A DNA stretch of 61,137 nucleotides from a virus. The notes beneath the pieces were generated by a model. That model was not told the origin of the DNA, made no database searches, and saw only the letters and a list, made by a program, of their open reading frames with translations. Of the stretch, positions 14,182 through 41,820 are shown piece by piece (the stretch's first letter is position 1; the number at the start of each line of letters is the position of its first letter). Location of the stretch: positions 1-61,137 of the IMG/VR virus record IMGVR_UViG_3300020732_000001; one strand, 5' to 3'. Made by a program: the position numbers and the translations under genes.

Positions 14182-17100
14182 ATGCCATCAGTAAGCATTC
14201 CTTATGTTGGGGTAGTAAATTTCCCTGACGATATGTCTCATGAAGACATTTCAAATGCAATTCAAAATCATATTCTTCCAAATGCACCACATCCTGCCGC
14301 TACTCAGCCTGGCTCAACTAGCCTAGCAGATACATTACAACAATCTATATTTGCTCCTGTGCAAGCATTATTTCCAAGTGTGGGAACTGAGCCAAGCACA
14401 ATGGTAGGATCACTTGCAAAGGGTGTTCAATCATTAAAAGATATTGGAGCACAGGCAAAGTTAAGTGATTTAATTCCATTACAAGAATTAGATAAAGAAA
14501 ATTATGGCCCAAATTTTGAAAGAGCACCAACGACTGGACCTCAATCAAGAGAAAATTTGTTGGCTACCAGAGAAAAAGTTAATCAATATTTAGGTCAATT
14601 AGAACAATCTAAAGCTAATGCTCAAGCGATTGATGCAAAGTATGGCGTTGATCCTTTATCTAAAAAGATTACTGCATTAGAGCAGACTAAAGATTTTAAA
14701 GATGCCAGCACATGGGAACAAACTAAAAAGATTGGTTCAGAGCTATTAAGTAATTTTACGGATATACCAGAATATATTGCTAACGTAGGTTTAAGTAGTT
14801 TGCCACAATCTATTGCTATGGCTGTAGCATCTAAAGTAGGTGCATCAGCAGGAATAACTGGTGCAATGGTAGCTGGTGGTGCTTCATCTGCGTTCATGGA
14901 ATATGGTAATGAGTATGTTGATTTAAGAGAACAAGGATTTACTCACGAACAAGCTAATGACAAAGCTGCCGTTAAATCAGGAATTATTGGATTGCTTGAT
15001 GCTGTTTCTTTAAATTCAGCTGGTAAAGTTGCTGAAAAAATATTTGGTGGCACAAGACAGGCATTAAAAGAAACTGCCAAAGACATTGGCAAGGAAATAC
15101 CTAAACAAGCTGCTTTAGGTGCGGCTGGAGAAGGCTTTGGTTCTTATTTAAGTAATCAACCAGTTAATCCTAGAGCAGTAATGGAAGAAGCTCTTGGTGA
15201 GGTATTTGGTGCTCCTGGTGAGGCAATGTCTACTTATCAAGGTAAAAGAGCACAGCAAATTCAAAATCAAGAAGCTCCAGTTGTTAAGCCAGAGCCAAAA
15301 GGCACGGTTACTATTGGGCCTTCAACTCCTCCAGTTCCTTTAATTACTGAGGCAGATTTAGAAGAAGAACCATCAGGTCGACCACCAGTTCTACCAACTT
15401 TGCCTCATACTCTTGAAGAAATTATGGATAAAGGCGAGCCTGTTGAAACAAAACAGGAAGCTGAAAAAGCTCACAGCGATGGTGATACCGTTTATGGATT
15501 TCATGAGCAAGATGAAGAACATCCTGTATTAATTAAAGACATTGACCAGTTAAAAGGATATACACCTGATCAACTGATGGTTGTTCCTAAAGAAGAAAAA
15601 CCAAAAGAACAAAGAAAAAAAGAATCTCCAATAGCATCATCTACTACATATAACGTAAAAACCGAAGATGCTGGCACATTTTTAACTCAAGTCTTTAGAA
15701 ATAAAGATGGCTCTATTGATATAATGGATGAAGATGGACAGGTTATAAAAAATAATAAAGAATTTGCAAAAGGAAAATCTGATGCTGAATTATTGGCTTA
15801 CCATTTTGAACCATTAGGATATGAATCTCATGAAGTTGTTCCTAAAGAAGAAACGCCAGCTGAAGTTAAAAAAGAAGAAGAACAAAAAGAAGAAGAATCT
15901 ACCAGTAACATTGTTACAGGTGTAGGGGTAAACCCTGAGACAATCAATAAAGTTATTGATGCTCGTAGTGCTGGAAAAGCAAAAGATTATATTAAAAAAC
16001 ATGGTCAAGAATTTTTTGATCAAGCCTTAAAAGATGGTTTGATTAGAACTTTTACCGTTGGTAAAAATACATTTGTTACTACTACAGATGAGGGTGATGA
16101 TCTTTACTATACAAATACTAAAACAGATGATGGTAAGTATTCTTTAAAAGAAGTGCAAGATGCTGTGGATAGCGTTAAAGGTGAATGGGAACAATTTGCT
16201 GATGCTGACAAGTTTATTAAAAAATATCCAGACATGCTTACCTCGGCATGGAAAAGTGGATTTTTAAGAACAAGTGCATCTGGAACCAATCTTTTTGCTG
16301 TTTACAATGAAGAAGATCTTGAAAGAGCAAAACAGAATCAAGCGGATGAAGAAAATCCAATTGAAATGTTTAAACAAAATATAGCCGAAAGAGCGGCAGA
16401 AGAAAAGGCTAGAGAAGAAGAAAAAGCAAAAGCACCAAAGACAAAGGCTGAACTTAACAGAGAACGTCAACAGGCTAAGAAAGAGGCTGCTGAAAAGAAG
16501 AAGCAAGAAGAAGAGGTTAAGAAAAAACAGCTAGATGAAGAAGCTGAAATGAAAATGCCTGAAGAAATTGAGGCGGAAGAGCTTAAAGATAAAATAGCAC
16601 CAAATGAAACAAAAAAAATTAATGCAACAAATTATATTTCTAAGTCTACTAATGCAGAAAAACTTAATGGCTGGTCAAAAATAGATACATATAGTTCAAT
16701 TATTTTGGTTGGACAGGAAGATCCTAATGTTAAAGAATTTACTCAGCATACTTGGACATTTAATCCAAAGTCTGGAACTGATGCTATGCGAGCACAAAAT
16801 CTTGTGCAAGTATGGACACAAGAAAATCCTTTAAAAAAAGAAGAGCCTAAAGGCAAAATTAAAATAGAGCCTGTTGTTAAAAAAACACAGGCAGAAATTA
16901 ATAAAGAACGACAAGAGGCTAAAAAAAATGCCACTAAAAAACCACAAGATTTTACAAATGATGAATTAGATTTAGCGGCAAAGATTGTTTATAACGGTAA
17001 TGGTATTGAATATGAAAAATCAGTACTACCAATCCTTAAAAAATTACAGGATGCAGGGTTAATAAAATTACAAGGAACAAAAGTATTTTTAACTCAAGAA

Positions 17101-20100
17101 TCCAAAGATGCTGGTATTCCAGAGGGCAGTTCTTTTAGTCAATTTTCTGATTCAGAAGACGTTAAAAACTTGCGTAATTTTTTAACTAAAGGACCCAAAA
17201 AAGAAGAAGTCAAAGTAGAAAAAAAGCCAGCTGAAGAACATATTGAGCCAAACAAAGTTGAGCCAGTTACTCCAAAGACTATAGAAAAGTCTATTGAAAA
17301 AGCTCAATCTAGAGTAGATTACAAAAAAATCAAACAGGCAATTTCTAATCAATTTGATCAGGCCATCAAAAGGGCTACGATTCAAACTGAAAAAGAATGG
17401 GATGCATCAACTAAAGAACGAGATAGTTTTGTAAAGATTGACATTCCTGGTGATGGTAAGTTCAAGGTGGCAAACAATGTAGAACGTCTTGAAGATCTTA
17501 AGAAAAAACTTATTAACGCTGCCGCTCCAAAGACTGGTGGCATTCCAAGAGCACCAAGTGCTGCAAGTGTATCGTCTGCTGAGACTGCATTTAAGAACTT
17601 TGTTGAAGAGCAAGATTTTGAGAATGCAATTAAATACGCTGAACTCAAAGGCTTGGATATGAAAGAAGTCAAGTTGACTCCAGATCAGCGGAAACAGTTA
17701 GACAATTACATCAAAAATCCAAAGGCATTTGAAGAAGAGAAAGCTGAAGTTGAAAAACAATCAGAAGATTATGTAGAAGCTCAAAAAGAAAATGCTGTTG
17801 AAAAATTAAATCTTAAAGAAGAAAAACCAAAGGCTGGTCAAGTATTCCCAGCACCAGCAGTTAATAAAAAATTGTTTGAGGGCACAGATAAGCCCATTAC
17901 AAAAAAACCAAATTGGATGGATGAAGGAGTATGGAATCAATATGAACGATTCCAGGCTGGTAATTTCTCTATGCCAACTGCATCATTTCAAGGTGCTGAA
18001 CGGATTAAAAAAGGAAATGAGTTTAAAAAAGAAGCAGAGAAAAATTACAAAGAAGCGGCTAGGATATTCCTTAGATTTGCATCAACGGCTAAATTCCCAA
18101 CGGCTCGTGCTGATAAATTGATATTGGAAAAAGGTTCTTACATCCCAGCCAGACCAATTGAAAAGAAAATTATTGGGGCATTTACTGAGCCAAATATTAA
18201 GAAGGCTGTATATGCATTGGTAGATCCAAAAGAAGTTAGAGAGGCTTTGCGTGGTGCTGTATTAGAACCAGATAAAACAGTCTCGACTGATGGCAAACGA
18301 TTATTGATTGTTAATACCAAGAACGATGTTACTAAACCAACGATTGTTGATAAAGATGGCAAAGTAATTGAGGCTCAGATTGCTCCCTACGAGAAGGTAT
18401 TAGAAAAGTATAAAGACTTAAAACCAAGTCATGGCGTTAATGCTGAAGCGTTGGGGGACTATGCTCGTGGAGTTATCAAAGGACACAAGTATGCTGGTAA
18501 TACTTTTTATCCAATTACTTTGGTTGTGGGTAAAGAGAATTACACATTTAATGCAGAGTTTATTGAAGACCTAACAAACGCTTTTAGACAGTTGGGATAT
18601 CCAGAGTTCAATATAGGAATTCAAGATAAGATGTTGAAAGCGGTATCGCCAGATGGAAAAGTAACACAGTTACTCATGGGTATGACAGAGCGTGATACCA
18701 ACTTCATGCCATTTAATATTAATAACGGATATCCAAGTTTTACGAGCGATGAAAAATTGGGTGAAGAGTATTTTATTGAAGGTGAAGCTACGGATATCTC
18801 TAACCGTAAGTTGCTTGCTGGCCCTGTAGATGAGTTATCTGAACAAGAACAAGTCAAGTTAGAAGAGCATTACGGTGCAAAACGCAACACCAGAGAGTTT
18901 TTTACTCAATTAAAAGATGATGTTATTCGTGCTACAAACGAAGGTATTGGCATTATTGATAGTGCAATTCGAGATATCATTGCCAAGATTCAAGCTGGGG
19001 TTTTAGCCGTAGCAATTATCTTTAATCCTGCCTACATGAGTGAAGGCAACTATTTCATGATGCCTACCAAAGAAAGGTCGGTCAGGATTGAACAGGTCAG
19101 AGCTGAAGTTCCTGCCGAAGCAGAAGGTATGTCAGAGGCTGGTAAACATGCTTACTCGATGATTGCACCTGCACAAAGTGGCACTAAGTACTTTACGATT
19201 GTTGACAAACCTACTGCAACAGCGTATGTCTTTAACCCAGATGGTAGTTTAAAGATCTCAAGAAAAGTATTGTTAGGTAAAGCGTTTGGCGATTCTTATG
19301 TTGGTCAAGTTCAATTTGAACAAAATAGACAGACTCCAGCAGGAATGTTTACCATTAATGCTGAAAAAGGTAATCTGCGTGACTACGATGGCAAGACTAT
19401 CTACACATTAAGTGGTGATAAAGGTGCGTTCCATGTGGCTGTCATGCATACGGTCTATACTAAAGAGTCAGATGGTAAAGCTAGATTAAATGCATTGACT
19501 ACTCCTGGTGCTGCCGACTCTCGTTATTCGCATGGCTGTATCAACGGCACTCCTGAGTTTATGCAGTCCATCAACGATGAGAAGATGGATCAATCTCATA
19601 TGTTTGTTGTGCCTGATAATCAGGCTAAAGTTGATGATTTCTTGGCAAACAATGTTCCTAAAGATGACTTGGATCGCATGGAAGTCAAGCCAGTTGAAAG
19701 ACAGGTTGTAGAAGAGCGTGAACAGCAAAAAGTGGTTAGTGGTGCACAGCAAGATTTATTAGCGACTAGAGAAGAAGAAATCAAAGCCCCAAAGACGCAA
19801 GCAGAAATTAATCGTGAACGCCAACAGGCTAAAAAAGCAAGCCAAGAAACGCCTGAAGAAGATTATCGTGGAACATTTACAGATAACCTTGATGAACGCA
19901 GATTTTTCAAAGAAGAAAGTTTATCCAATAAACAACATGCTTCTGAACAGGCTCGCAAAGTAAAAACTTCTATTACCAAAATTTTAAGACAAATGGTAAA
20001 GGGTAACTTTGGTATTGATACCCAAAGAGCACTTACAGAACTTTTATCTGAAAGAACCATTACCAATATAGAAAAGAAATATGCTAGGGTAAGAATTGAT

Positions 20101-23100
20101 TCTGCCGATGCATTCTTGGCTAATGCTATTCGTGATGCTGAATTGCATAGAGCTTATCCAAAAGATGAACGTTATGGTCTAAAGCCAGAGGTATTGGCTG
20201 TAATTAAAGAAGTTAATCGTAGATTTCCAAATGTTTTAGATGGCTTAAGGTTAAGCATTAAGAAACCCAATGAACGTGGATCAACAGGTAACTTTGCACC
20301 ATTATCAAGAATAGTGACGTTATATAAAGACACATCAGGCACATCAGAGCCTAAAACATTTAGACATGAAATTATGCACTCACTTGAGCAGATGATGCCA
20401 GATGATGTGTACATGAAAGTTATTAATAACTGGGCTAAGTCTTTAGCGAAAGCAATTGAAAACTATACAGATAAAAAACATCAAAAATATTTTGATGCTG
20501 TTTTAGATTATGTCAATAATCCAAATGAGCAAACATATCAAAAAGCAAAAGATGCTTTGCCTAATTACAACATGTATCAATACATTAATCCTTCTGAGTT
20601 CTGGGCGGTTAATGCTGAGAAACTGTTTGGGCAGAAGCTAGGCGGTCGTTGGGAAAACTTTAAACGAGCCGTACAAAAACTATTTGAAGGATTAAAGAGT
20701 GTCTTTGGTTTTGATAATCGTTATGGTGTGCATGTGGCGTTTGATCGTTTATTCAAGGGAGATCTTGAGCGTGGCGAGAGTAGACGTATGCTGGTGGATT
20801 ATCTGTATCGTAACAATATAACCAAAGAAACCATATTAGAGAATGTAGATTCAGATGAAATTAATGAATTGTCTGAGAAGCATGGCATCAATGAGCCACC
20901 AGAAAAATTATCGCCATCTGTTGTAGATTGGATTACAGGTGGTAAACAATATGTAAAAAATCTAAAAAATAATTTAAAAGAATCACCAAGAGGCGTAGCT
21001 GTTCAGATGACTGGTAATCTGGATAATGCATTGCTTGGCTTTAGAATCAAAACAACTGACTTTACGGCAGGTCTTGCAGCTGCCGATGCTGAAAAGTATG
21101 GTCGTAAGTTAGAAAACGGCATGAACCAAGCGATTGCTGCAGTAGCAAGCAATCAAGCATTAAGAGCAATTCGTATAGCTTCTAGGGTTGTGGCCAGAGG
21201 AAAATTGGTATTTGATCCTCAATGGCAAATGTTTAGAGCTCAAGAAGACAAGCATTCAATGGCAAACATTTTCCGATTAAGAAAAGAATTTGCTAAACGA
21301 GTTGGTAAATCAGAGGCTAAAAAAGCAATTCAGGGTTTCTTTGAGGCATTACGTTCTAAGAGTATTATTCAAGAGTATGTAGATAGACAAGCCGATTTAG
21401 AAAAATACTTAGCAGAACAAGCTGATCCAACAACTAATGCTAAACGCCAAGCTAAATTAATTAAATTAATTAATGAAGCTCAAGATGATTTGAAAAACGT
21501 AAGTATTGCATTAGAAAAAGTTAGATTGAGTGATGATGCTATTTATGACTTAATTAAGATGGGTGAAAAACATCCAGAGTTAGTGGAGATTCGTAAGAAT
21601 TGGAATGCTATTAATCAAAATATGATTAATATGATGGAGTTTGCCAGCATTATTAGTGAAGAACGTGCCAATACTTTGCGTAATATCAAGGACTATGTTC
21701 CTTGGAATCGTATTATGGATGAGCAAAAAGATGCTCGCAATCCTGTTTGGCTATATACCTCTAAAGGCGTACGAAACGTCAATAGAGAACCAATTTTTAG
21801 ACGAGGAGCAACGAACAGGGATATTGATGACATCATTGATAACATGACGCACAACGTCATGATGATTACTCGCAATGTCATTAAAAACTATGCTGCTAAT
21901 CGTATTGCTCAGGAGTATGCGGAGCGTGATGAAAATGGCAAAATTAAAACTTACCCAGCTGAAGATTTTAGTAAAGGTATTGTTAAAATTTTAGTCAACG
22001 GACAAAAAGTTAATGTCAAGATTCTTGATATGTATGTGGCTCAATCCGTTATTGGTGCTGAGAATGTTCAAATTCCACTTAATGGTATTATGTCGTTCTT
22101 TGCAAACCTTGCAAGAAGAGCGATTACTTTAAGCCCTAAATTCCAAGTTAAACAAGCATTCCAAGATGCGTTTACTGCGGCTATGGTTACTGGTGTTAAA
22201 AACCCTGCTGCTTTGTTAGGGAATGTCTTTGTATCGTTTGCCAAAGGGTTAAATCCCAACGATGAAGTCATTAATACATTAAAAGATTTTGGTGTGGGCG
22301 GTTTTTCTGGCATATCTAGAACACAACAAGGGCGTTACTCTCAAGAAGTTGGCATGTTAAATGATAATCGTCTTTCTCAATTAACTGGACTACTTGACCA
22401 TATTGCTGATGCTTCTGACTATTCACAGCGTATGGCCGCTTACAATCGAGTAATGGCTGAGACTAATGGTGATGTGCGAGCTGCGATTCTTGCTGCGACC
22501 AATGTGATTGACTTTGAAAAACATGGTGCTGGCATAACAATGCAATTTTTAAATCGTACCATTATGTTTATGAATGCTTATGCCCAACAGATCGATGTAT
22601 TAACTCAAGCGTTAATGCTCAATCCTAACGGTGGTCTGCGTGGCATTGATCGTCAGCAAGCTTTAATTCGATTAGGAACAGCTGTAGCAATGATGGCTGG
22701 TATGACATTGCTTTATACATCTTGGGCTGGTGATGACGATGAGTATCAAAAGACAGATGACCGTACTCGTATGCGTAACATTATTCTTCCTAAAGGCAAA
22801 ACTGGCTTTGATCAAACTTATTACATTCCAATTAATACTTCAGCCTCATTCCTGGTCAAAGGCATGATTGAGATGTTACATAACAAATATATTAATGAAT
22901 CATTTAAAGATAAGATTGATGGCACAAGATTTCGTTCAGCCATGTTAAAAGGATTTGTTGATTCTATGTTAGGACCTTTGACTTCTGGACCAGTACCAAC
23001 AGCGTTCAGAGCACCTACTGAAATTATATTGAACCATAACTTTTATACTGGTGGTAAGGTAACTCCAGACAGTATGAAGAACTTAGCAGCATTTCGACAA

Positions 23101-23658
23101 TTCAATGCCAATACATCTGAACTGGGTAAATACATTAGCAGAGCTACTCAGAATCCATTAGATCCAGAACAAAGAATGTTAAACCCAATGGAAGCAGATC
23201 ATGTCATGCGTGGCTTAGGAGGTTCTGTATCAGCTGTTGCCATGTATTTATCTAATATGTTATCTGGCAATCATCCTACGCAAGATGACCGTAAGAATCC
23301 ATTGTATGGAGACTTTATTGCACCTGAGATTCCAAAAGGTAACGAAGAGTTATTCTATGACCTTAAATCTAGGGCTGAAGTAGCTCATGACACAATGACA
23401 GATATGTATCGAAATCAGCATACAGAAGAGGCTCAGAACTGGCAAAAAGCTCATGAAGGATTAATTAAAGCTTATGGATTTACAGAAAGTGCTGGTAAGT
23501 CTTTAGCAGCATTAAATAAAGAAATTCAAAGAACGGCTGACCTTCCAGAGGCTCAGATGACTAAAGAACAGAAAAAAGCCAGAATGATTGAACTGCAAAA
23601 AACAAAACAGATTATTCTTGATAAGACAATCGAGTTTAGAAAGTTAGCTGGACTGTAA
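14182..23658 (+). CDS. Giant multidomain ejection protein with L,D-transpeptidase-like and zincin motifs
   Basis: At 3158 residues this is the largest gene. Residues ~200-300 are Ala/Gly-rich and possibly membrane-active. Residues ~380-1250 are low-complexity Lys/Glu coiled coils with repeated AELNRERQQAKK-type helices. At about 1700-1830 a YkuD-like domain ends in RYSHGCING with the catalytic-type Cys at 1786. A zincin motif HEIMH lies at 2062-2066. The C-terminal third resembles the large polyvalent 'LPD38' associated region and includes hydrophobic helices. Proteins of this type are stored in the head and ejected; the two motifs suggest peptidoglycan remodelling and proteolysis at entry. 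Its 3' end overlaps the opposing resolvase gene by 23 bp. Confidence 0.85.
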   Translation: MPSVSIPYVGVVNFPDDMSHEDISNAIQNHILPNAPHPAATQPGSTSLADTLQQSIFAPVQALFPSVGTEPSTMVGSLAKGVQSLKDIGAQAKLSDLIPLQELDKENYGPNFERAPTTGPQSRENLLATREKVNQYLGQLEQSKANAQAIDAKYGVDPLSKKITALEQTKDFKDASTWEQTKKIGSELLSNFTDIPEYIANVGLSSLPQSIAMAVASKVGASAGITGAMVAGGASSAFMEYGNEYVDLREQGFTHEQANDKAAVKSGIIGLLDAVSLNSAGKVAEKIFGGTRQALKETAKDIGKEIPKQAALGAAGEGFGSYLSNQPVNPRAVMEEALGEVFGAPGEAMSTYQGKRAQQIQNQEAPVVKPEPKGTVTIGPSTPPVPLITEADLEEEPSGRPPVLPTLPHTLEEIMDKGEPVETKQEAEKAHSDGDTVYGFHEQDEEHPVLIKDIDQLKGYTPDQLMVVPKEEKPKEQRKKESPIASSTTYNVKTEDAGTFLTQVFRNKDGSIDIMDEDGQVIKNNKEFAKGKSDAELLAYHFEPLGYESHEVVPKEETPAEVKKEEEQKEEESTSNIVTGVGVNPETINKVIDARSAGKAKDYIKKHGQEFFDQALKDGLIRTFTVGKNTFVTTTDEGDDLYYTNTKTDDGKYSLKEVQDAVDSVKGEWEQFADADKFIKKYPDMLTSAWKSGFLRTSASGTNLFAVYNEEDLERAKQNQADEENPIEMFKQNIAERAAEEKAREEEKAKAPKTKAELNRERQQAKKEAAEKKKQEEEVKKKQLDEEAEMKMPEEIEAEELKDKIAPNETKKINATNYISKSTNAEKLNGWSKIDTYSSIILVGQEDPNVKEFTQHTWTFNPKSGTDAMRAQNLVQVWTQENPLKKEEPKGKIKIEPVVKKTQAEINKERQEAKKNATKKPQDFTNDELDLAAKIVYNGNGIEYEKSVLPILKKLQDAGLIKLQGTKVFLTQESKDAGIPEGSSFSQFSDSEDVKNLRNFLTKGPKKEEVKVEKKPAEEHIEPNKVEPVTPKTIEKSIEKAQSRVDYKKIKQAISNQFDQAIKRATIQTEKEWDASTKERDSFVKIDIPGDGKFKVANNVERLEDLKKKLINAAAPKTGGIPRAPSAASVSSAETAFKNFVEEQDFENAIKYAELKGLDMKEVKLTPDQRKQLDNYIKNPKAFEEEKAEVEKQSEDYVEAQKENAVEKLNLKEEKPKAGQVFPAPAVNKKLFEGTDKPITKKPNWMDEGVWNQYERFQAGNFSMPTASFQGAERIKKGNEFKKEAEKNYKEAARIFLRFASTAKFPTARADKLILEKGSYIPARPIEKKIIGAFTEPNIKKAVYALVDPKEVREALRGAVLEPDKTVSTDGKRLLIVNTKNDVTKPTIVDKDGKVIEAQIAPYEKVLEKYKDLKPSHGVNAEALGDYARGVIKGHKYAGNTFYPITLVVGKENYTFNAEFIEDLTNAFRQLGYPEFNIGIQDKMLKAVSPDGKVTQLLMGMTERDTNFMPFNINNGYPSFTSDEKLGEEYFIEGEATDISNRKLLAGPVDELSEQEQVKLEEHYGAKRNTREFFTQLKDDVIRATNEGIGIIDSAIRDIIAKIQAGVLAVAIIFNPAYMSEGNYFMMPTKERSVRIEQVRAEVPAEAEGMSEAGKHAYSMIAPAQSGTKYFTIVDKPTATAYVFNPDGSLKISRKVLLGKAFGDSYVGQVQFEQNRQTPAGMFTINAEKGNLRDYDGKTIYTLSGDKGAFHVAVMHTVYTKESDGKARLNALTTPGAADSRYSHGCINGTPEFMQSINDEKMDQSHMFVVPDNQAKVDDFLANNVPKDDLDRMEVKPVERQVVEEREQQKVVSGAQQDLLATREEEIKAPKTQAEINRERQQAKKASQETPEEDYRGTFTDNLDERRFFKEESLSNKQHASEQARKVKTSITKILRQMVKGNFGIDTQRALTELLSERTITNIEKKYARVRIDSADAFLANAIRDAELHRAYPKDERYGLKPEVLAVIKEVNRRFPNVLDGLRLSIKKPNERGSTGNFAPLSRIVTLYKDTSGTSEPKTFRHEIMHSLEQMMPDDVYMKVINNWAKSLAKAIENYTDKKHQKYFDAVLDYVNNPNEQTYQKAKDALPNYNMYQYINPSEFWAVNAEKLFGQKLGGRWENFKRAVQKLFEGLKSVFGFDNRYGVHVAFDRLFKGDLERGESRRMLVDYLYRNNITKETILENVDSDEINELSEKHGINEPPEKLSPSVVDWITGGKQYVKNLKNNLKESPRGVAVQMTGNLDNALLGFRIKTTDFTAGLAAADAEKYGRKLENGMNQAIAAVASNQALRAIRIASRVVARGKLVFDPQWQMFRAQEDKHSMANIFRLRKEFAKRVGKSEAKKAIQGFFEALRSKSIIQEYVDRQADLEKYLAEQADPTTNAKRQAKLIKLINEAQDDLKNVSIALEKVRLSDDAIYDLIKMGEKHPELVEIRKNWNAINQNMINMMEFASIISEERANTLRNIKDYVPWNRIMDEQKDARNPVWLYTSKGVRNVNREPIFRRGATNRDIDDIIDNMTHNVMMITRNVIKNYAANRIAQEYAERDENGKIKTYPAEDFSKGIVKILVNGQKVNVKILDMYVAQSVIGAENVQIPLNGIMSFFANLARRAITLSPKFQVKQAFQDAFTAAMVTGVKNPAALLGNVFVSFAKGLNPNDEVINTLKDFGVGGFSGISRTQQGRYSQEVGMLNDNRLSQLTGLLDHIADASDYSQRMAAYNRVMAETNGDVRAAILAATNVIDFEKHGAGITMQFLNRTIMFMNAYAQQIDVLTQALMLNPNGGLRGIDRQQALIRLGTAVAMMAGMTLLYTSWAGDDDEYQKTDDRTRMRNIILPKGKTGFDQTYYIPINTSASFLVKGMIEMLHNKYINESFKDKIDGTRFRSAMLKGFVDSMLGPLTSGPVPTAFRAPTEIILNHNFYTGGKVTPDSMKNLAAFRQFNANTSELGKYISRATQNPLDPEQRMLNPMEADHVMRGLGGSVSAVAMYLSNMLSGNHPTQDDRKNPLYGDFIAPEIPKGNEELFYDLKSRAEVAHDTMTDMYRNQHTEEAQNWQKAHEGLIKAYGFTESAGKSLAALNKEIQRTADLPEAQMTKEQKKARMIELQKTKQIILDKTIEFRKLAGL

Positions 23659-24046: not shown

Positions 24047-24057
24047 AACTGCTAGGA
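24047..24057 (+). promoter_or_regulatory. CTGCTAGGAG-type leader/ribosome site (truncated copy)
   Basis: AACTGCTAGGA lies 8 bp before the ATG at 24066. It is the first member of a motif family at 34643, 38861, 40886, 41809, 33265 and 33396. The AGGA part can act as Shine-Dalgarno; the conserved AACTGCT part is not needed for that. Confidence 0.75.
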
Positions 24058-24065
24058 AAATCAAA

Positions 24066-24284
24066 ATGAATGTCCCTTACACCACGAAGACTGGTTTAAA
24101 GATTGGCTTACGTTACCAAGAAGAAGGTATCAGAATGCCTATCGATGATCCAGATATGTTGTTTTTACAAACCATGCTCATTTGCCCTAAAGCAAGAAGA
24201 CAAGAGAAGCTTGATGATTTAGTTTACAAGTTTGCTGTTGTTATTTTGCTTGGCATTATGTTTTTTAAATTTATCTTTCGCTAG
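24066..24284 (+). CDS. Small tail-anchored membrane protein
   Basis: A 72-residue protein with a soluble N-terminus and a single C-terminal hydrophobic segment (FAVVILLGIMFFKFIF). It is the first gene of the recombination operon, behind the TATAGT and AACTGCTAGGA leader. Function is unknown. Confidence 0.75.
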   Translation: MNVPYTTKTGLKIGLRYQEEGIRMPIDDPDMLFLQTMLICPKARRQEKLDDLVYKFAVVILLGIMFFKFIFR

Positions 24285-32812: not shown

Positions 32813-33083
32813 ACTGGTTCGTGTTATTCCTTGTCAAAACTGTGGCCTACAGGATGGAACGGTGGTCGCTGCTCATTCTAATCAACTTCGAGATGGTAAA
32901 GGTCGTGGAATCAAAGCTCACGATTATAGGGTGGCAGCTTTATGTTACAAATGCCATAGTGAATTAGATCAAGGTAATAGACTTTCTAAAGAAGAACGAG
33001 TAGAAATGTGGGAAGAAGCCCACAGAAATACGATTGGTTGGTTATTTGAAAATGATTATGTTAAAATTTGTTTAGTTCCTTAA
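32787..33083 (+). CDS. YbcO/DUF1364-type HNH-like nuclease
   Basis: A 98-residue protein with CQNCG at 16-20, His30, GKGRGIKAHDYRVA, then CYKCH at 53-57 and ELDQG. This is the zinc-bound pattern of YbcO/Rap-type phage recombination nucleases (DUF1364). It probably trims or cuts branched DNA. It is the last gene before a good intrinsic terminator. Confidence 0.82.
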   Translation: MYRNKQLLELVRVIPCQNCGLQDGTVVAAHSNQLRDGKGRGIKAHDYRVAALCYKCHSELDQGNRLSKEERVEMWEEAHRNTIGWLFENDYVKICLVP

Positions 33084-33261
33084 TTTGAGTTATGTCTTGT
33101 TCTGGAATTAGAGCTAGGTTTGGGTTACCGCCCTGTCTAGCTCGTTTTTTTTGAGGTTCGATTTTTAGTGCCACAGCCAAAAAACAATATGTTGACACTT
33201 TTTTAAAATTTCGTCTATACTTAGTGGGTACACCCCATGTACTACCGTCACCGTGACGCAT
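33061..33261 (-). CDS. Possible small protein with CTGCTAGGAG leader (66 aa)
   Basis: The minus-strand ATG at 33261 lies 3 bp after CTGCTAGGAG, sharing 14 bases (CTGCTAGGAGTTTA) with the leaders of two real minus-strand genes, so it may be genuine. The product has a basic centre (EPQKKRARQGGNPNLALIP). Against it, the frame crosses a strong plus-strand terminator and a plus-strand promoter, its stop overlaps the nuclease gene, and no minus-strand promoter is obvious. Either the gene or only its start-site sequence is functional. Confidence 0.35.
   Translation of the reverse strand: MRHGDGSTWGVPTKYRRNFKKVSTYCFLAVALKIEPQKKRARQGGNPNLALIPEQDITQIKELNKF
33111..33152 (+). terminator. Intrinsic terminator of the recombination/small-gene operon
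   Basis: GAGCTAG (33111-33117) pairs with CTAGCTC (33137-33143), with an inner GGG/CCC pair, followed by G and eight Ts. It is 28 bp after the nuclease stop and is the clear end of the long plus-strand operon. Confidence 0.85.
33192..33221 (+). promoter_or_regulatory. Sigma70-type promoter
   Basis: TTGACA (33192-33197), 18-bp spacer, TATACT (33216-33221); predicted start near 33226-33228. It is the best consensus promoter I see in the window, and no gene follows it before a terminator. Confidence 0.8.
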
Positions 33262-33264
33262 AAA

Positions 33265-33274
33265 CTCCTAGCAG
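33265..33274 (-). promoter_or_regulatory. CTGCTAGGAG motif, minus orientation
   Basis: A copy of the early leader motif. On the minus strand it precedes the ATG at 33261. On the plus strand it is the anti-leader segment in the loop of the candidate small RNA. Beyond the motif, GCGTCACGG follows after TTTAT, matching the plus copy at 33398-33417 with a 4-nt difference in spacing. Confidence 0.8.
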
Positions 33275-33313
33275 GGTTAATCAAAACTGACGGTAGGATC
33301 CTCCCTGATCCCT

Positions 33314-33356
33314 CCCCAGAACCCTAGACTAATCATCTGGGGTTCTTTCTTTTTGT
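33314..33356 (+). terminator. Intrinsic terminator of the small-RNA unit
   Basis: CCCCAGA (33314-33320) pairs with TCTGGGG (33336-33342), followed by TTCTTTCTTTTTG. A second perfect pairing, AGAACCC/GGGTTCT (33318-33324 with 33340-33346), is mutually exclusive with it. Confidence 0.75.
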
Positions 33357-33386
33357 GCTTGCAAAATATTTTAAAATGGTTTAATC

Positions 33387-33407
33387 TATAATCTCAACTG
33401 CTAGGAG
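33387..33407 (+). promoter_or_regulatory. -10 element and AACTGCTAGGAG leader copy
   Basis: TATAAT at 33387-33392 is followed by AACTGCTAGGAG at 33396-33407. A TTGCAA lies 22 bp upstream of the TATAAT, too far for a normal -35. Transcription would begin at or within the motif. The first ATG (33419) opens only a 15-codon frame ending at 33466. Confidence 0.55.
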
Positions 33408-33511
33408 TGCGTCACGGAATGAATCAACTCCGTGATAACAATTTGTGTATTTTGTATATACGTTAATTTAACGTGTATAGATTTATGCCATTTTGTTTAC
33501 GCACTCCTAGC
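33400..33511 (+). ncRNA. 112-nt three-way inverted-repeat element
   Basis: GCTAGGAGTGCGT (33400-33412) and ACGCACTCCTAGC (33499-33511) form a perfect 13-bp outer stem that would bury AGGAG. Inside are a CACGGA/TCCGTG hairpin (33413-33418 with 33429-33434) and an ACGTTAA/TTAACGT hairpin (33460-33466 with 33468-33474). It may be a folded RNA, a replication origin cruciform or an operator pair. The symmetry itself is directly visible. Confidence 0.5.
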
Positions 33512-33870
33512 ACGATGATTTAGGTCTATCGGTCTGAGTATGTGTGAAAGTTGCCCTTGAAGTTGAGTAGAACGGCAAAAAGACATACGTTTACGTTCTT
33601 CCTAAATTAGCGTGATAGTGAGCAAAGAAGATTGTTTAGGCTCAAGGTGTGGAAGCGTGGTCTTTACTCTGTCTGAGAACGATTGAGAACAATAGAGATC
33701 ATTCGGTGACACTTAAACGAACTCGTAGTACAGAGTAGAAAGCACCGATGTGTGAACTAGACTACCAATGGTTCATTAACTTGATATGAAGTAAGCGACC
33801 GAAAGGATATCGAGTTGAGTTTTCCTTCAATCCCATGCTGTGGGGTTGGGGGAAACCTCACTTTCAATTT
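33512..33870 (+). ncRNA. Candidate large structured RNA
   Basis: No convincing reading frame. Nested and serial pairings occur: GTATGT/ACATAC (33538/33583) enclosing TTGCC/GGCAA (33551/33574); CCTAAA/TTTAGG (33601/33635); and GGT-CTTT-ACTCTG with CAGAGT-ag-AAAG-c-ACC (33659-33671 with 33731-33746). A GAAA-capped CGACC/GG-ata-TCG hairpin follows (33796-33812). Last is a terminator-like GTGGGGTT/AACCTCAC hairpin (33840-33861) before a T-rich stretch. Base composition is less AT-rich than nearby genes. No known RNA family recognised. Confidence 0.42.
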
Positions 33871-33894
33871 CGTTTCGCTCCCTCAAGGATATAT

Positions 33895-34101
33895 ATGAAA
33901 GAAATCGTAGAACAGAGAATTAAAGAGTTGGAACGGTTGGTTGAGATCACACCGATAAATAAGAGTTTCAGTCTTCAGTCGAGACTGGTTGAGGCGAAAC
34001 ATATCTTAGATCTAATTAATCAAGAAGAGAAGTATGTATCAGAAAGTGTAATGAATGAAATACAAGATGCTTTATATGGAAAAATGAAAGGAAAGAAATG
34101 A
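33895..34101 (+). CDS. Hypothetical helical protein (68 aa)
   Basis: ATG 33895, with AAGGA upstream, is preferred over an in-frame upstream start at 33835 that would run through the terminal hairpin. MKEIVEQRIKELERLVEITP..., charged and helical throughout. It is the first gene after the non-coding region. Confidence 0.7.
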   Translation: MKEIVEQRIKELERLVEITPINKSFSLQSRLVEAKHILDLINQEEKYVSESVMNEIQDALYGKMKGKK

Positions 34102-34627: not shown

Positions 34628-34654
34628 TATACTGAAATTTCCAACTGCTAGGAG
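34628..34654 (+). promoter_or_regulatory. -10 element plus AACTGCTAGGAG leader before parB-like gene
   Basis: TATACT (34628-34633) is followed by AACTGCTAGGAG (34643-34654), 5 bp before the ATG at 34660. No good -35 is visible at normal spacing. This is the full 12-base form of the motif and marks a new transcription unit for the replication genes. Confidence 0.65.
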
Positions 34655-34659
34655 AATAA

Positions 34660-35514
34660 ATGAAGAAAGTAAATATACTCGCCATTCGTATTGATGGCGG
34701 CACTCAATCTCGTGATAAATTAAATGAAGATGTAGTAAAAGAATATGCTGATTGCATGAAAGATGGTGCAATATTTCCACCGATTACAGTCTTTTTCGAT
34801 GGCTCTGATTACTGGTTAGCCGATGGTTTTCACAGATACTTTGCTAATAAATCTTTAGGTAATGTAGCCCTTGACTGCGATGTCAAAGAAGGCACTTGTA
34901 GGGATGCAGTCTTACATTCCTTTGGTGCAAACGGCAAGAATGGTCTACCACCAACGGCCAAAGAAAAACGCAATATTGTGATTAAAATGATCCAAGATGA
35001 AGAATGGGGTAAATGGTCAAATAAACATATTGCAACCATTGTCCATGTATCCTCAATGACTGTGGGTAGAATCAGAAAAGAATTAGAAGAAGAGCCGAAA
35101 GAAAAAGTCACCTATCTTCGTCAAGGCGTAGAAGTAGAAGCAAAAAAACCAAAGAAGAAAAAAGCTGAAAAGAAAAAAGAAGAACCTATAGCAGAACCAG
35201 TAGATCCTGTAGTGGTAGATCCTGTAGCTCCAGATCAATCTTTAAATCCATTGGAAATCAAGATTGATGAACTTAGTCGAGACATTATTGATTACATTGA
35301 AGAGATCACAAAACTTAAGGATGTGATTGCAACTAAACGATACGATGCCACAGAGTTTGAGCAAGAGGATGCTTTGATGACGATCCAAGAACTTCGTGAG
35401 GAAATTAAACTTAAAGATAGAGAAATTAAATCATTGCGTGATAGTCGTGATATGTATCAAGAACGCAATGCTGAACTCATTAAACAACTCAAAGCTTATC
35501 AGAAGAAAAAATAA
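34660..35514 (+). CDS. ParB/Srx-like DNA-binding protein with coiled coil
   Basis: The N-terminal ParB-type fold has IDGGTQSRDKLNEDVVKEYA and the signature DGFHRYFA at about 55-62, then a helix-turn-helix (IATIVHVSSMTVGRIRKEL, ~126-145). A Lys/Pro linker and a long coiled coil (~200-280) follow. Such proteins bind DNA sites and may load replication proteins or use CTP. Overlap by 1 bp with the helicase suggests they work together, perhaps as replication initiator and helicase. No ParA is present. Confidence 0.82.
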   Translation: MKKVNILAIRIDGGTQSRDKLNEDVVKEYADCMKDGAIFPPITVFFDGSDYWLADGFHRYFANKSLGNVALDCDVKEGTCRDAVLHSFGANGKNGLPPTAKEKRNIVIKMIQDEEWGKWSNKHIATIVHVSSMTVGRIRKELEEEPKEKVTYLRQGVEVEAKKPKKKKAEKKKEEPIAEPVDPVVVDPVAPDQSLNPLEIKIDELSRDIIDYIEEITKLKDVIATKRYDATEFEQEDALMTIQELREEIKLKDREIKSLRDSRDMYQERNAELIKQLKAYQKKK

Positions 35515-38384: not shown

Positions 38385-38650
38385 GCCGCCTCCCTTTCTC
38401 TTAAAACTGCATCCACCAAATACTCAAATGTTTCCCAGTTCAACCCAATGTTGGCATCAAGATTTCTTTTTGCTCGTCTGAGGACTTCTCTGCGTTCATC
38501 ATCAGTTAAATCGTCACCATCACAGACCTCGCCCACATCATCAATGTGCCACCAGTCGCTAATCCAGTTTGGATCAGTCAAGCGTTTAATGTCATCCACA
38601 GTAGGAACGGCTTGACCATCTGGCAAATCGAATTCAATCATTACTCGCAT
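38381..38650 (-). CDS. Hypothetical protein (89 aa)
   Basis: MRVMIEFDLPDGQAVPTVDDIKRLTDPNWISDWWHIDDV: the N-terminal strand and the DPNWISDWWHIDDV segment recur in phage proteins of unknown function. ATG 38650 is preferred because GGAGG lies 4 bp upstream. Overlaps neighbours on both sides. Confidence 0.74.
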   Translation of the reverse strand: MRVMIEFDLPDGQAVPTVDDIKRLTDPNWISDWWHIDDVGEVCDGDDLTDDERREVLRRAKRNLDANIGLNWETFEYLVDAVLREREAA

Positions 38651-38853
38651 ACAACCTCCACAATTCTAAATTCATCATAGGAATAAGGTTCTTCTAAATT
38701 CCCCTCTTGGTAATCGGCAATCGTGTCCTCAATAAAATCTTTGAGTTCAGCCTCTGCCTGTTCTTTCGTTTCATAAACAGTCGGCATACCTGTCTGGGCA
38801 TCATGCCAGACATTCTCCCAACCATAGACAAACTCTTGTTCAACAATAAACAT
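38641..38853 (-). CDS. Hypothetical acidic protein (70 aa)
   Basis: The start at 38853 (MFIVEQEFVYGWENVWHDAQ) is 7 bp after AACTGCTAGGAG; a longer frame from 38898 would run through the leader hairpin. EQAEAELKDFIEDT and YDEFRIVEV give a mixed acidic fold like other phage 'EFRIV' proteins. Function unknown. Confidence 0.76.
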   Translation of the reverse strand: MFIVEQEFVYGWENVWHDAQTGMPTVYETKEQAEAELKDFIEDTIADYQEGNLEEPYSYDEFRIVEVVCE

Positions 38854-38860
38854 ATCATTT

Positions 38861-38932
38861 CTCCTAGCAGTTAAACGATTGCAAAATGGCAATCCCAATG
38901 CCCAATTAAGGGCATCAGGATTACAGCACTTA
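38861..38932 (-). promoter_or_regulatory. Structured intra-operon leader, copy 1
   Basis: Read on the minus strand: the upstream stop codon in TAAGTGC, hairpin ATGCCC/GGGCAT (38898-38903 with 38910-38915), hairpin GATTGC/GCAATC (38877-38882 with 38889-38894), then AACTGCTAGGAG (38861-38872). The same order with the same shared blocks occurs at 40886-40963. Neither hairpin has a T-run, so these are not simple terminators. Confidence 0.7.
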
Positions 38933-40621: not shown

Positions 40622-40788
40622 AGATCACCTGTAAGAACTTTAATTAGTTTAGGCTCGGTCTTGGTCTGGATACGCTTGAGGTTATTCCACCCCAAATAGT
40701 AATCAATCCATTCGCAAGCCTCCAAGAACGAGGGCAGAACATGGGAGGCGATCACCTCCCTTCGTTGGTTATAGATAATCGCTTGCAT
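40618..40788 (-). CDS. Hypothetical protein (56 aa)
   Basis: Starts in a TAATG overlap at 40788 and ends in an ATGA overlap. MQAIIYNQRREVIASHVLPS then EACEWIDYYLGWNNLKRIQ; basic, possibly a small DNA- or RNA-binding protein. Not recognised. Confidence 0.72.
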   Translation of the reverse strand: MQAIIYNQRREVIASHVLPSFLEACEWIDYYLGWNNLKRIQTKTEPKLIKVLTGDL

Positions 40789-40877
40789 TAAAACCCCCCA
40801 GTCCTAAGAACCCAAATAAGGGCAAGCCCTGAACCCATCAAAGCACCAAATAAACACGCATAAAAAATATCTTTCAT
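40788..40877 (-). CDS. Very small membrane protein (29 aa)
   Basis: MKDIFYACLFGALMGSGLAL then IWVLRTGGF: one transmembrane helix with a glycine zipper. It sits directly behind AACTGCTAGGAG and the structured leader, so despite its size it occupies a first-gene position in a translated unit. Confidence 0.68.
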   Translation of the reverse strand: MKDIFYACLFGALMGSGLALIWVLRTGGF

Positions 40878-40885
40878 TTTTTAAA

Positions 40886-40963
40886 CTCCTAGCAGTTAAA
40901 GTTAATGATTGCCGAAAATGACAATCCCTAAACCCTCTAGAGAGGGCTTAGAGGTGGCACTTA
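40886..40963 (-). promoter_or_regulatory. Structured intra-operon leader, copy 2
   Basis: Minus strand: TAAGTGC at the upstream stop, hairpin CCCTC/GAGGG with flanking CTAA/TTAG (40928-40937 with 40942-40951), GATTG/CAATC hairpin (40907-40911 with 40922-40926), then AACTGCTAGGAG (40886-40897). It matches the copy at 38861-38932 in block order and in the GGGATTG-y-CATTTT and CAATC blocks, while hairpin 1 differs in sequence but keeps its pairing. Confidence 0.72.
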
Positions 40964-41368
40964 GTGGCTCTCTTCTGTCTCTGGTGCTTGAGTAAACAAT
41001 TCAGGGAAAGCCGTAAAAAGTTTATAAGCGTTTGTTTGATCTGCTCTAGTGAAAGCCTGAGCAAGATAGAAAGCAAACGAGCCTTGATTCTGCATAATGT
41101 TGCATGACTCGAAGGCTTGAGCCTTTTGGATAGCGTTTAATTTCATAAGGTGATTCCTTTGTGAGTGAAAAAAATTGTCTGCTGAACTTTTGGAGAGAGA
41201 ATATAAAATTTGCTCTGGTGTAGGATCGTTGAGAGCCCACCACTCAAGACAGTTATATTTAGTGTTAAATCTGGCGATATCGTAAAGCGTAACATCAGCA
41301 TGAGGGGATTTAAAGGCGATTACTTGACCTTCAAATAGTGGTGTTGCTGTAAAGTTCGTTCCTCTCAT
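40961..41368 (-). CDS. Hypothetical protein (135 aa)
   Basis: ATGA overlap with the first gene of the operon. MRGTNFTATPLFEGQVIAFK ... NPTPEQILYSLSKSSADNFF; contains FYLAQAFTRADQTNAYKLF near the end. No recognised family. Confidence 0.72.
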   Translation of the reverse strand: MRGTNFTATPLFEGQVIAFKSPHADVTLYDIARFNTKYNCLEWWALNDPTPEQILYSLSKSSADNFFHSQRNHLMKLNAIQKAQAFESCNIMQNQGSFAFYLAQAFTRADQTNAYKLFTAFPELFTQAPETEESH

Positions 41369-41799
41369 GCTAGAGCCTCCTCTTTCTGGGTGATGTAATA
41401 GCCGATTGTGTGCCCTTTTTTATTGCCTTCCCATTGGACTTCTAAGCCGATCGCTTCGGCGATTCTACGCATGGACTCAATCCCACAACCTCCATTTAAG
41501 TAAACTGAGCCATCTGGCTTAATGAATAAGCCGTAATAGTTGGGGTGATAAGTGCCCTTCACTACCTTATCAGGAGTAGAGCCGTAATCCTCTAAGGGGA
41601 GATCTCTAACAAGGGCTTGAAGTGCCTCTTGGTGTTCACACTCTAGATAGTCTCCAAATACTGTGCCGATCATGTCATAGCCTCCACCATTACATTTATA
41701 AGAGTGCCCAGATCGTGAGGAAAGTTTGCAAATGTTATAGCCGTAAGTGTCTCGACCTCTGGAGACTGACCAAGTGATTTTAAGATGATTGATTTTCAT
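41365..41799 (-). CDS. Hypothetical protein, first gene of the minus-strand operon (144 aa)
   Basis: MKINHLKITWSVSRGRDTYG ... GHSYKCNGGGYDMIGTVFGD ... LYLNGGCGIESMRRIAEAIG style blocks recur in many phage early regions, but I know no function. Starts 9 bp after AACTGCTAGGAG. Confidence 0.76.
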   Translation of the reverse strand: MKINHLKITWSVSRGRDTYGYNICKLSSRSGHSYKCNGGGYDMIGTVFGDYLECEHQEALQALVRDLPLEDYGSTPDKVVKGTYHPNYYGLFIKPDGSVYLNGGCGIESMRRIAEAIGLEVQWEGNKKGHTIGYYITQKEEALA

Positions 41800-41808
41800 G
41801 TTTTTAAA

Positions 41809-41820
41809 CTCCTAGCAGTT
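41809..41820 (-). promoter_or_regulatory. AACTGCTAGGAG leader of the minus-strand operon
   Basis: A full 12-base motif followed by TTTAAAAAC and the ATG at 41799. The leader sequence CTGCTAGGAGTTTAAAAA is also present at the 40886 copy. There is no structured hairpin block here, unlike the two downstream intra-operon copies. Confidence 0.78.

Follow-up and report, generated by a model that had tools for sequence, protein, structure and literature searches.

A conserved phage small RNA predicted to pair with tagged ribosome-binding sites through a shared core and with its own leader RNA through a private guide

A phage genome in which one short stretch is complementary to the translation-start region of several genes raises the question of whether that stretch encodes an antisense RNA and, if so, on which RNAs it would act. 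The window analysed here is the whole 61,137-base IMG/VR virus record IMGVR_UViG_3300020732_000001. It carries terminase, portal, head, exonuclease, Erf-like, helicase and ParB-like genes, and a search of its genes for a tyrosine integrase found none. The largest phage gene is a 3158-aa ORF (14182-23658). Relatives were gathered via the ParB-like protein, an upstream HNH-like protein and others. An earlier note had proposed a promoter, an intrinsic terminator and, between them, a 9-bp stem with a 37-nt loop exposing CTCCTAGCAG. All of these were found in the window, where the unit comprises the following parts.

33192-33221, plus strand: sRNA promoter, TTGACA (33192-33197) and TATACT (33216-33221) separated by 18 bp, recognised by sequence and in relatives
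33228-33352, plus strand: antisense small RNA with predicted ends, beginning 7 nt past the -10 and ending with the U tract of the terminator, a conserved unit
33228-33242, plus strand: 5' hairpin GTAC/GTAC, seen in the sequence; relatives have other complementary stems in its place
33242-33296, plus strand: stem of CTACCGTCA (33242-33250) and TGACGGTAG (33288-33296), whose 37-nt loop presents guide and core
33251-33264, plus strand: phage-specific guide CCGTGACGCA plus TAAA, complementary to the leader 5' end at 33408-33417 and covarying in relatives
33265-33274, plus strand: core CTCCTAGCAG, complement of the ribosome-binding site (RBS) tag, in the 37-nt loop
33318-33346, plus strand: intrinsic terminator of the sRNA, recognised by sequence and also in relatives

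The promoter scored 11/12, the best among 38 promoter-like sites between 24 and 43.5 kb, a region in which such sites were not enriched overall. With a predicted promoter and terminator that are kept in relatives, the sRNA has, by sequence, the free-standing transcription unit expected of a trans-acting sRNA. The predicted RNA folded with z = -2.8, and RNAfold formed 8 of the 9 pairs of the stem. The core was partly free in the window (mean unpaired probability 0.54, RNAfold) and only about 60% unpaired in predicted folds. Scans of the window gave the sRNA no Rfam identity.

About 35 distinct versions of the sRNA were found in related viral contigs with divergent surroundings, at the corresponding place and mostly directly after the HNH gene. 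The order of the unit was conserved: a -10 of the TATAYTTAGT type, a short variable hairpin, a stem in which CCTAGCAG comes after a variable stretch, in many cases one more hairpin, and the terminator. In an alignment of 18 sRNAs, CCTAGCAG was the sole invariant block, and it is the complement of the RBS tag CTGCTAGG. Hairpin conservation was taken from single sequences because MAFFT/RNAalifold misaligned the variable stems of these 18 sRNAs and recovered the terminator only in part. One near-identical relative, L082, has CCTAGCAA in place of CCTAGCAG (at 2260); the loop portion after the core is replaced there, and the leader and the ParB tag are unchanged. In L013, L027, L147 and L243 a GACACCTAGC segment, complementary to the tag core, recurs before the ParB-like gene.

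The motif matched by the core, CTGCTAGGAG, occurs exactly at 33398, 34645, 38861 (minus strand), 40886 (minus strand) and 41809 (minus strand), and with one mismatch at 24049. Allowing at most one mismatch, 8 matches were present in the window versus 2.1 ± 1.5 in shuffles. The earlier note had taken all the listed sites for translation starts. The complementarity was there at each of them, but 33398 dropped out as a start, since no ORF of at least 25 aa lies at RBS distance after it; it marks the expected 5' end of a leader RNA instead. The sites before genes are as follows.

24049-24058, plus strand: RBS tag CTGCTAGGAA of the 72-aa gene at 24066, directly before the exonuclease and Erf genes
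34645-34654, plus strand: RBS tag of the ParB-like gene at 34660, retained in many relatives
38861-38870, minus strand: RBS tag of the 70-aa gene 38641-38853 in a minus-strand unit, recognised by match and start distance
40886-40895, minus strand: RBS tag of the 29-aa ORF 40788-40877 at the head of a minus-strand unit
41809-41818, minus strand: RBS tag of the 144-aa gene 41365-41799, with a 14-nt sRNA match (CTGCTAGGAGTTTA)

In loci with the sRNA, CTGCTAGG was the commonest NNNNNAGG 8-mer before ATG starts (23/2704, of which about 3 are the sRNA read in antisense), and it was absent before starts in loci that lacked the sRNA (0/1332). The whole records of 15 relatives held about 82 copies versus about 11 of the reversed control pattern. 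Tag copies were located mostly at RBSs, as AACTGCTAGGAG, 7-11 nt from the start codon, and the recurrent tagged genes encoded the ParB-like protein, a 72-74-aa PYTT(K/S)TG protein, MGLDMYL and other small proteins. Judged by the window's terminase, the nearest named phages were 023Pt_psg01, HTVC027P and DSL-LC04; in the stretches of them that were read, the tag was no commoner than a control word. ParB matches among named phages were weak. Pairing at the RBSs was equally good with foreign sRNAs and with the phage's own (-24.8 versus -24.4 kcal/mol), in a comparison for which the sites had been selected by the motif and in which only positions outside the motif are informative. Phage-specific pairing of the mRNA tags beyond the core was tested for and was absent.

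The tag copy at 33398 falls where the 5' end of another structured RNA, one with its own promoter, is expected. The features of this leader are listed here.

33359-33387, plus strand: leader promoter, TTGCAA (33359-33364) and TAATCT (33382-33387) separated by 17 bp, recognised by sequence; a TTGCAA/TTTAATCT-type block is conserved in relatives
33398-33417, plus strand: leader 5' end and predicted sRNA binding site CTGCTAGGAGTGCGTCACGG, supported by pairing and covariation
33399-33412, plus strand: 5' strand of leader stem P1, a 14-bp stem with 33499-33512
33499-33512, plus strand: 3' strand of P1, ACGCACTCCTAGCA, supported by the fold and by covariation in relatives
33514-33861, plus strand: structured leader body (module I), supported by the fold; the same body occurs in L084, L086, L091 and L092, and no Rfam family, RF02932 included, matched the window's leader

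The leader (33398-33865) folded far better than shuffles (z = -6.6). An inverted tag copy at 33504 is within the P1 3' strand, and the complementarity between sRNA and leader exceeds 10 nt, with CCGTGACGCA(TAAA)CTCCTAGCAG facing CTGCTAGGAGTGCGTCACGG. This inverted copy, the longer complementarity and the leader as the main partner had all escaped the earlier note. In relatives, GCTAGG, at the expected start of the second transcript behind a TTGCAA/TAATCT-type promoter, was usually located about 50 nt (up to about 130) past the sRNA terminator, and the P1 3' strand was 40-150 nt downstream of the leader 5' strand.

The guide, that is the 10-20 nt preceding the core, varied between phages and complemented the bases after GCTAGG in the leader of the same phage. 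For example, in L117 the sRNA CACGTCAACTCTCCTAGCAG matches the leader GGGCTAGGGAAGTTGACGTGTG, and in L311 the sRNA CCTGATTTTTCCGATTTAGCAG matches the leader CTGCTAGAAGGAAAAATCAGG. Without the core, the guide paired with its own leader at -14.5 kcal/mol and with other phages' leaders at -7.0 kcal/mol (permutation p <= 5e-5), in a set whose leaders were mostly chosen by position and which is less prone to own-pair bias. In 22 non-redundant guide-leader pairs, for which leaders were partly chosen by best pairing so that own pairs were favoured, the values were -15.2 versus -7.3 (p <= 1e-5) with shuffled guides at -7.1, and in this same set the leader 5' strand paired with its own P1 3' strand at -21.5 and with others at -14.3 (p <= 1e-5); these permutation values, like the one above, overstate independence because the relatives share history. 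No leader matching the sRNA was found for L003/L004 or L013/L221. The comparison showed that the predicted guide, the leader 5' strand and the P1 3' strand change together. Because the sRNA covers the P1 5' strand, its binding there would preclude P1 folding, and the two would be mutually exclusive.

Taken as a whole, the locus very probably encodes an antisense sRNA whose shared core covers the Shine-Dalgarno sites of operon-head genes and whose private guide binds or remodels the phage's own leader. The core CCUAGCAG, preceded by UC in most phages, would pair with the tag CUGCUAGGAG, which holds the Shine-Dalgarno sequence. The tagged operon heads would be the ParB-like gene, the 72-aa gene that precedes the recombination genes and the minus-strand small-gene units. 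A core duplex over the Shine-Dalgarno sequence would keep ribosomes off these mRNAs, and that a duplex over AGGAG blocks initiation is expected from established antisense biology. Guide and core together would pair with the first ~20 nt of the separate leader, transcribed just downstream and ahead of the ParB operon. We infer that both RNAs are transcribed, that the Shine-Dalgarno pairing is repressive, and that the leader is either the main regulated target, kept from folding, or a decoy that sequesters the sRNA and frees the tagged mRNAs. The earlier note had cast the phage's own RBSs as the targets; the comparison of core and tags supports such targets well, but the strongest and most conserved predicted partner is the adjacent leader.

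If the leader were a decoy, it would serve as a sponge that removes the sRNA, with early genes repressed first and freed on leader transcription, or in the reverse order. This is a sub-case of the explanation above and one that we hold only tentatively. The leader has the sequence of the RBS tag at a place that is not an RBS, and it is predicted to bind the sRNA tighter than the mRNAs do (on average about -29 versus about -25 kcal/mol), yet hundreds of nucleotides of conserved structure and exchangeable bodies would be superfluous for a sponge.

Pairing was backed by compensatory change for the leader and, in the L013/L221 lineage, for the RBS tags. In that lineage the sRNA core had changed to CCTAGCGG; of the 14 tags, 9 read CCGCTAGG and one reads CTGCTAGG, compared to 0/55 and 50/55, respectively, elsewhere. 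These tag counts are descriptive only, because the Fisher values for the change count one sRNA-antisense match and take L013 and L221 for independent cases. The core change is a single evolutionary event, though repeated at several targets. Together with the invariance of the core and the occurrence of the tag only alongside the sRNA, it argues for pairing between core and tag. At the ParB-like gene, CGCTAGGAG was also present in L014 and L024/L026, and no sRNA was found in the examined part of those contigs. Decayed cores, TGTAGCAG or TTTAGCAG, were seen in L006, L247 and L311, in which few RBS tags remain and leader pairing persists despite the decay. Since the leader pairing outlives core and tags in these phages, repression of mRNAs may be secondary, and the leader interaction may be older or more central than mRNA pairing.

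A stricter view is that the sRNA acts on its own leader only, as leader control of the ParB operon, and that the RBS match is a motif shared for other reasons. The leader pairing is indeed the strongest and most persistent interaction, and the mRNA pairing is without a phage-specific extension. However, the core is invariant even where the leader matches incompletely (CCTAGCAG did not vary in the 18 sRNAs though leaders read GGG-, GTG- or GAGCTAGG), Shine-Dalgarno pairing does not require the CTGCT part of the tag, and core and tags changed jointly in L013/L221. We therefore consider an action on the leader only to be rather unlikely.

The dual-target explanation, with a core for mRNAs and a guide for the leader, could also be extended to a self/non-self RNA immunity or timing circuit in which the core silences tagged genes group-wide and only the phage's own leader disarms the sRNA. 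The targets would then include genes of the same or of a superinfecting phage. Such a circuit would explain why RBS pairing is interchangeable and leader pairing is private and fast-diversifying, and it would explain the replacement of guides between otherwise near-identical phages. We speculate that this combination of private and interchangeable pairing is what a self/non-self discriminator needs, but the circuit as a whole seems unlikely to us.

It is very improbable that CTGCTAGGAG, together with its inverted copies, serves a phage regulator as a DNA operator and that the RNA complementarity is a by-product: inverted copies are concentrated around 33265-33513 and one copy is at the leader transcript start, but most copies have one orientation and a near-fixed 7-11 nt to a start codon, and a guide outside the motif that covaries with leader and P1 is not needed for an operator. 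Hardly credible at all is the reading of 33265 (minus strand) as the mere RBS of a 66-aa minus-strand ORF (33061-33261) that makes the antisense match trivial; an ATG lies at RBS distance from the minus-strand motif, but the ORF is kept only in the near-identical L082, with unrelated frames of 6-63 aa or none elsewhere, and the plus-strand promoter, hairpins and terminator are conserved instead. This minus-strand coding reading was rejected, and the codon-level constraint that the earlier note had named as a possible counter-argument was not what the relatives displayed.

Small antisense RNAs of phages offer a comparison for the dual-target sRNA. C4 and the P4 CI RNA arise by processing from the leader of the very unit under their control, and their action is confined to one immunity unit. 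In phages P1 and P7, the C4 antisense RNA covers RBS regions (Citron and Schuster 1990, summarised in PMC12197685). Like these, the sRNA is a small phage antisense RNA around phage-gene RBSs, just upstream of a target unit, with a specificity that varies among related phages. The short complementarity to the RBS of the downstream unit seen in C4 was found here at the ParB-like gene (34645) and in relatives. Unlike C4 and CI, the sRNA has its own predicted promoter and terminator, uses one core for several operons and a separate guide for a structured leader, and belongs to a phage in which no tyrosine integrase was found. Its own predicted promoter and terminator, with a second promoter behind them, speak against release of the sRNA by processing from the leader of a target transcript. 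The C4 model (RF01695) matched neither the window nor, at relaxed thresholds, the region 33100-33900. Other phage antisense RNAs are lambda OOP, P22 sar, phi24B 24B_1 and Gifsy-1 IsrK (PMC12197685, PMC4426718, PMC4825925). The sRNA resembles them in being a short phage RNA predicted to control phage genes. To our knowledge, none of the four has been described as combining a tag at several RBSs with a guide to a structured RNA next to it, and no description of such a tag-plus-guide system was found in the openly accessible literature. If the explanation is true, one sRNA would be the post-transcriptional regulator of a whole gene programme through a tag inside the Shine-Dalgarno region, and this candidate programme-wide sRNA would occur in a phage group for which no integrase was found.

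Behind the P1 region, BLAST distinguished at least four different leader bodies. Body I is shared by the window and the four relatives listed with it above, body II by L111, L133 and L124, and body III by L006, L130, L131 and L094. Body IV is the Rfam family RF02932 (Betaproteobacteria-1) and was present in L007, L009, L101, L117, L118, L135, L137, L140 and L155. In these 9 scanned sRNA-bearing relatives RF02932 directly followed P1 and scored 89-100 bits against a gathering cut-off of 49.4 bits. L091 and L111 are 93% alike in the 5' region and have the same sRNA guide, and their bodies differ, so this looks like an exchange of leader bodies as cassettes. A scan with the module I leader DNA gave matches only in contigs of the same viral group. 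Bodies I, II and III (scanned in the window, L111, L130 and L006), which sit where other leaders have RF02932, gave no Rfam match and appear to be large phage RNAs that have yet to be described.

RF02932 presumably goes back to a 2017 paper on 224 candidate structured RNAs. In the relatives the family forms the leader body, and P1 and the sRNA are outside the Rfam model; in bacterial genomes it occurs without a neighbouring tag or core. RF02932 was above the cut-off in 4 of 399 Burkholderiales genomes, and no tag, core or sRNA context was found near it there. In L175/L210, from an uncultured Pelomonas MAG, it shares a 6-kb contig with a ParB-like relative and has no tag or core beside it. The private guide and the exchange of bodies give this orphan RNA family a testable partner and context.

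Hairpins of at least 7 bp preceded 33% of the tags versus 15% in shuffles. A short hairpin of the GATTGCCATTTTGCAATC type was seen before many minus-strand tags, in the window at 38861-38900 and 40886-40930 (minus strand), and it could be a processing or termination signal. Hairpins of this type also preceded tags in L190 (3921), L191 (3189) and L202 (7021).
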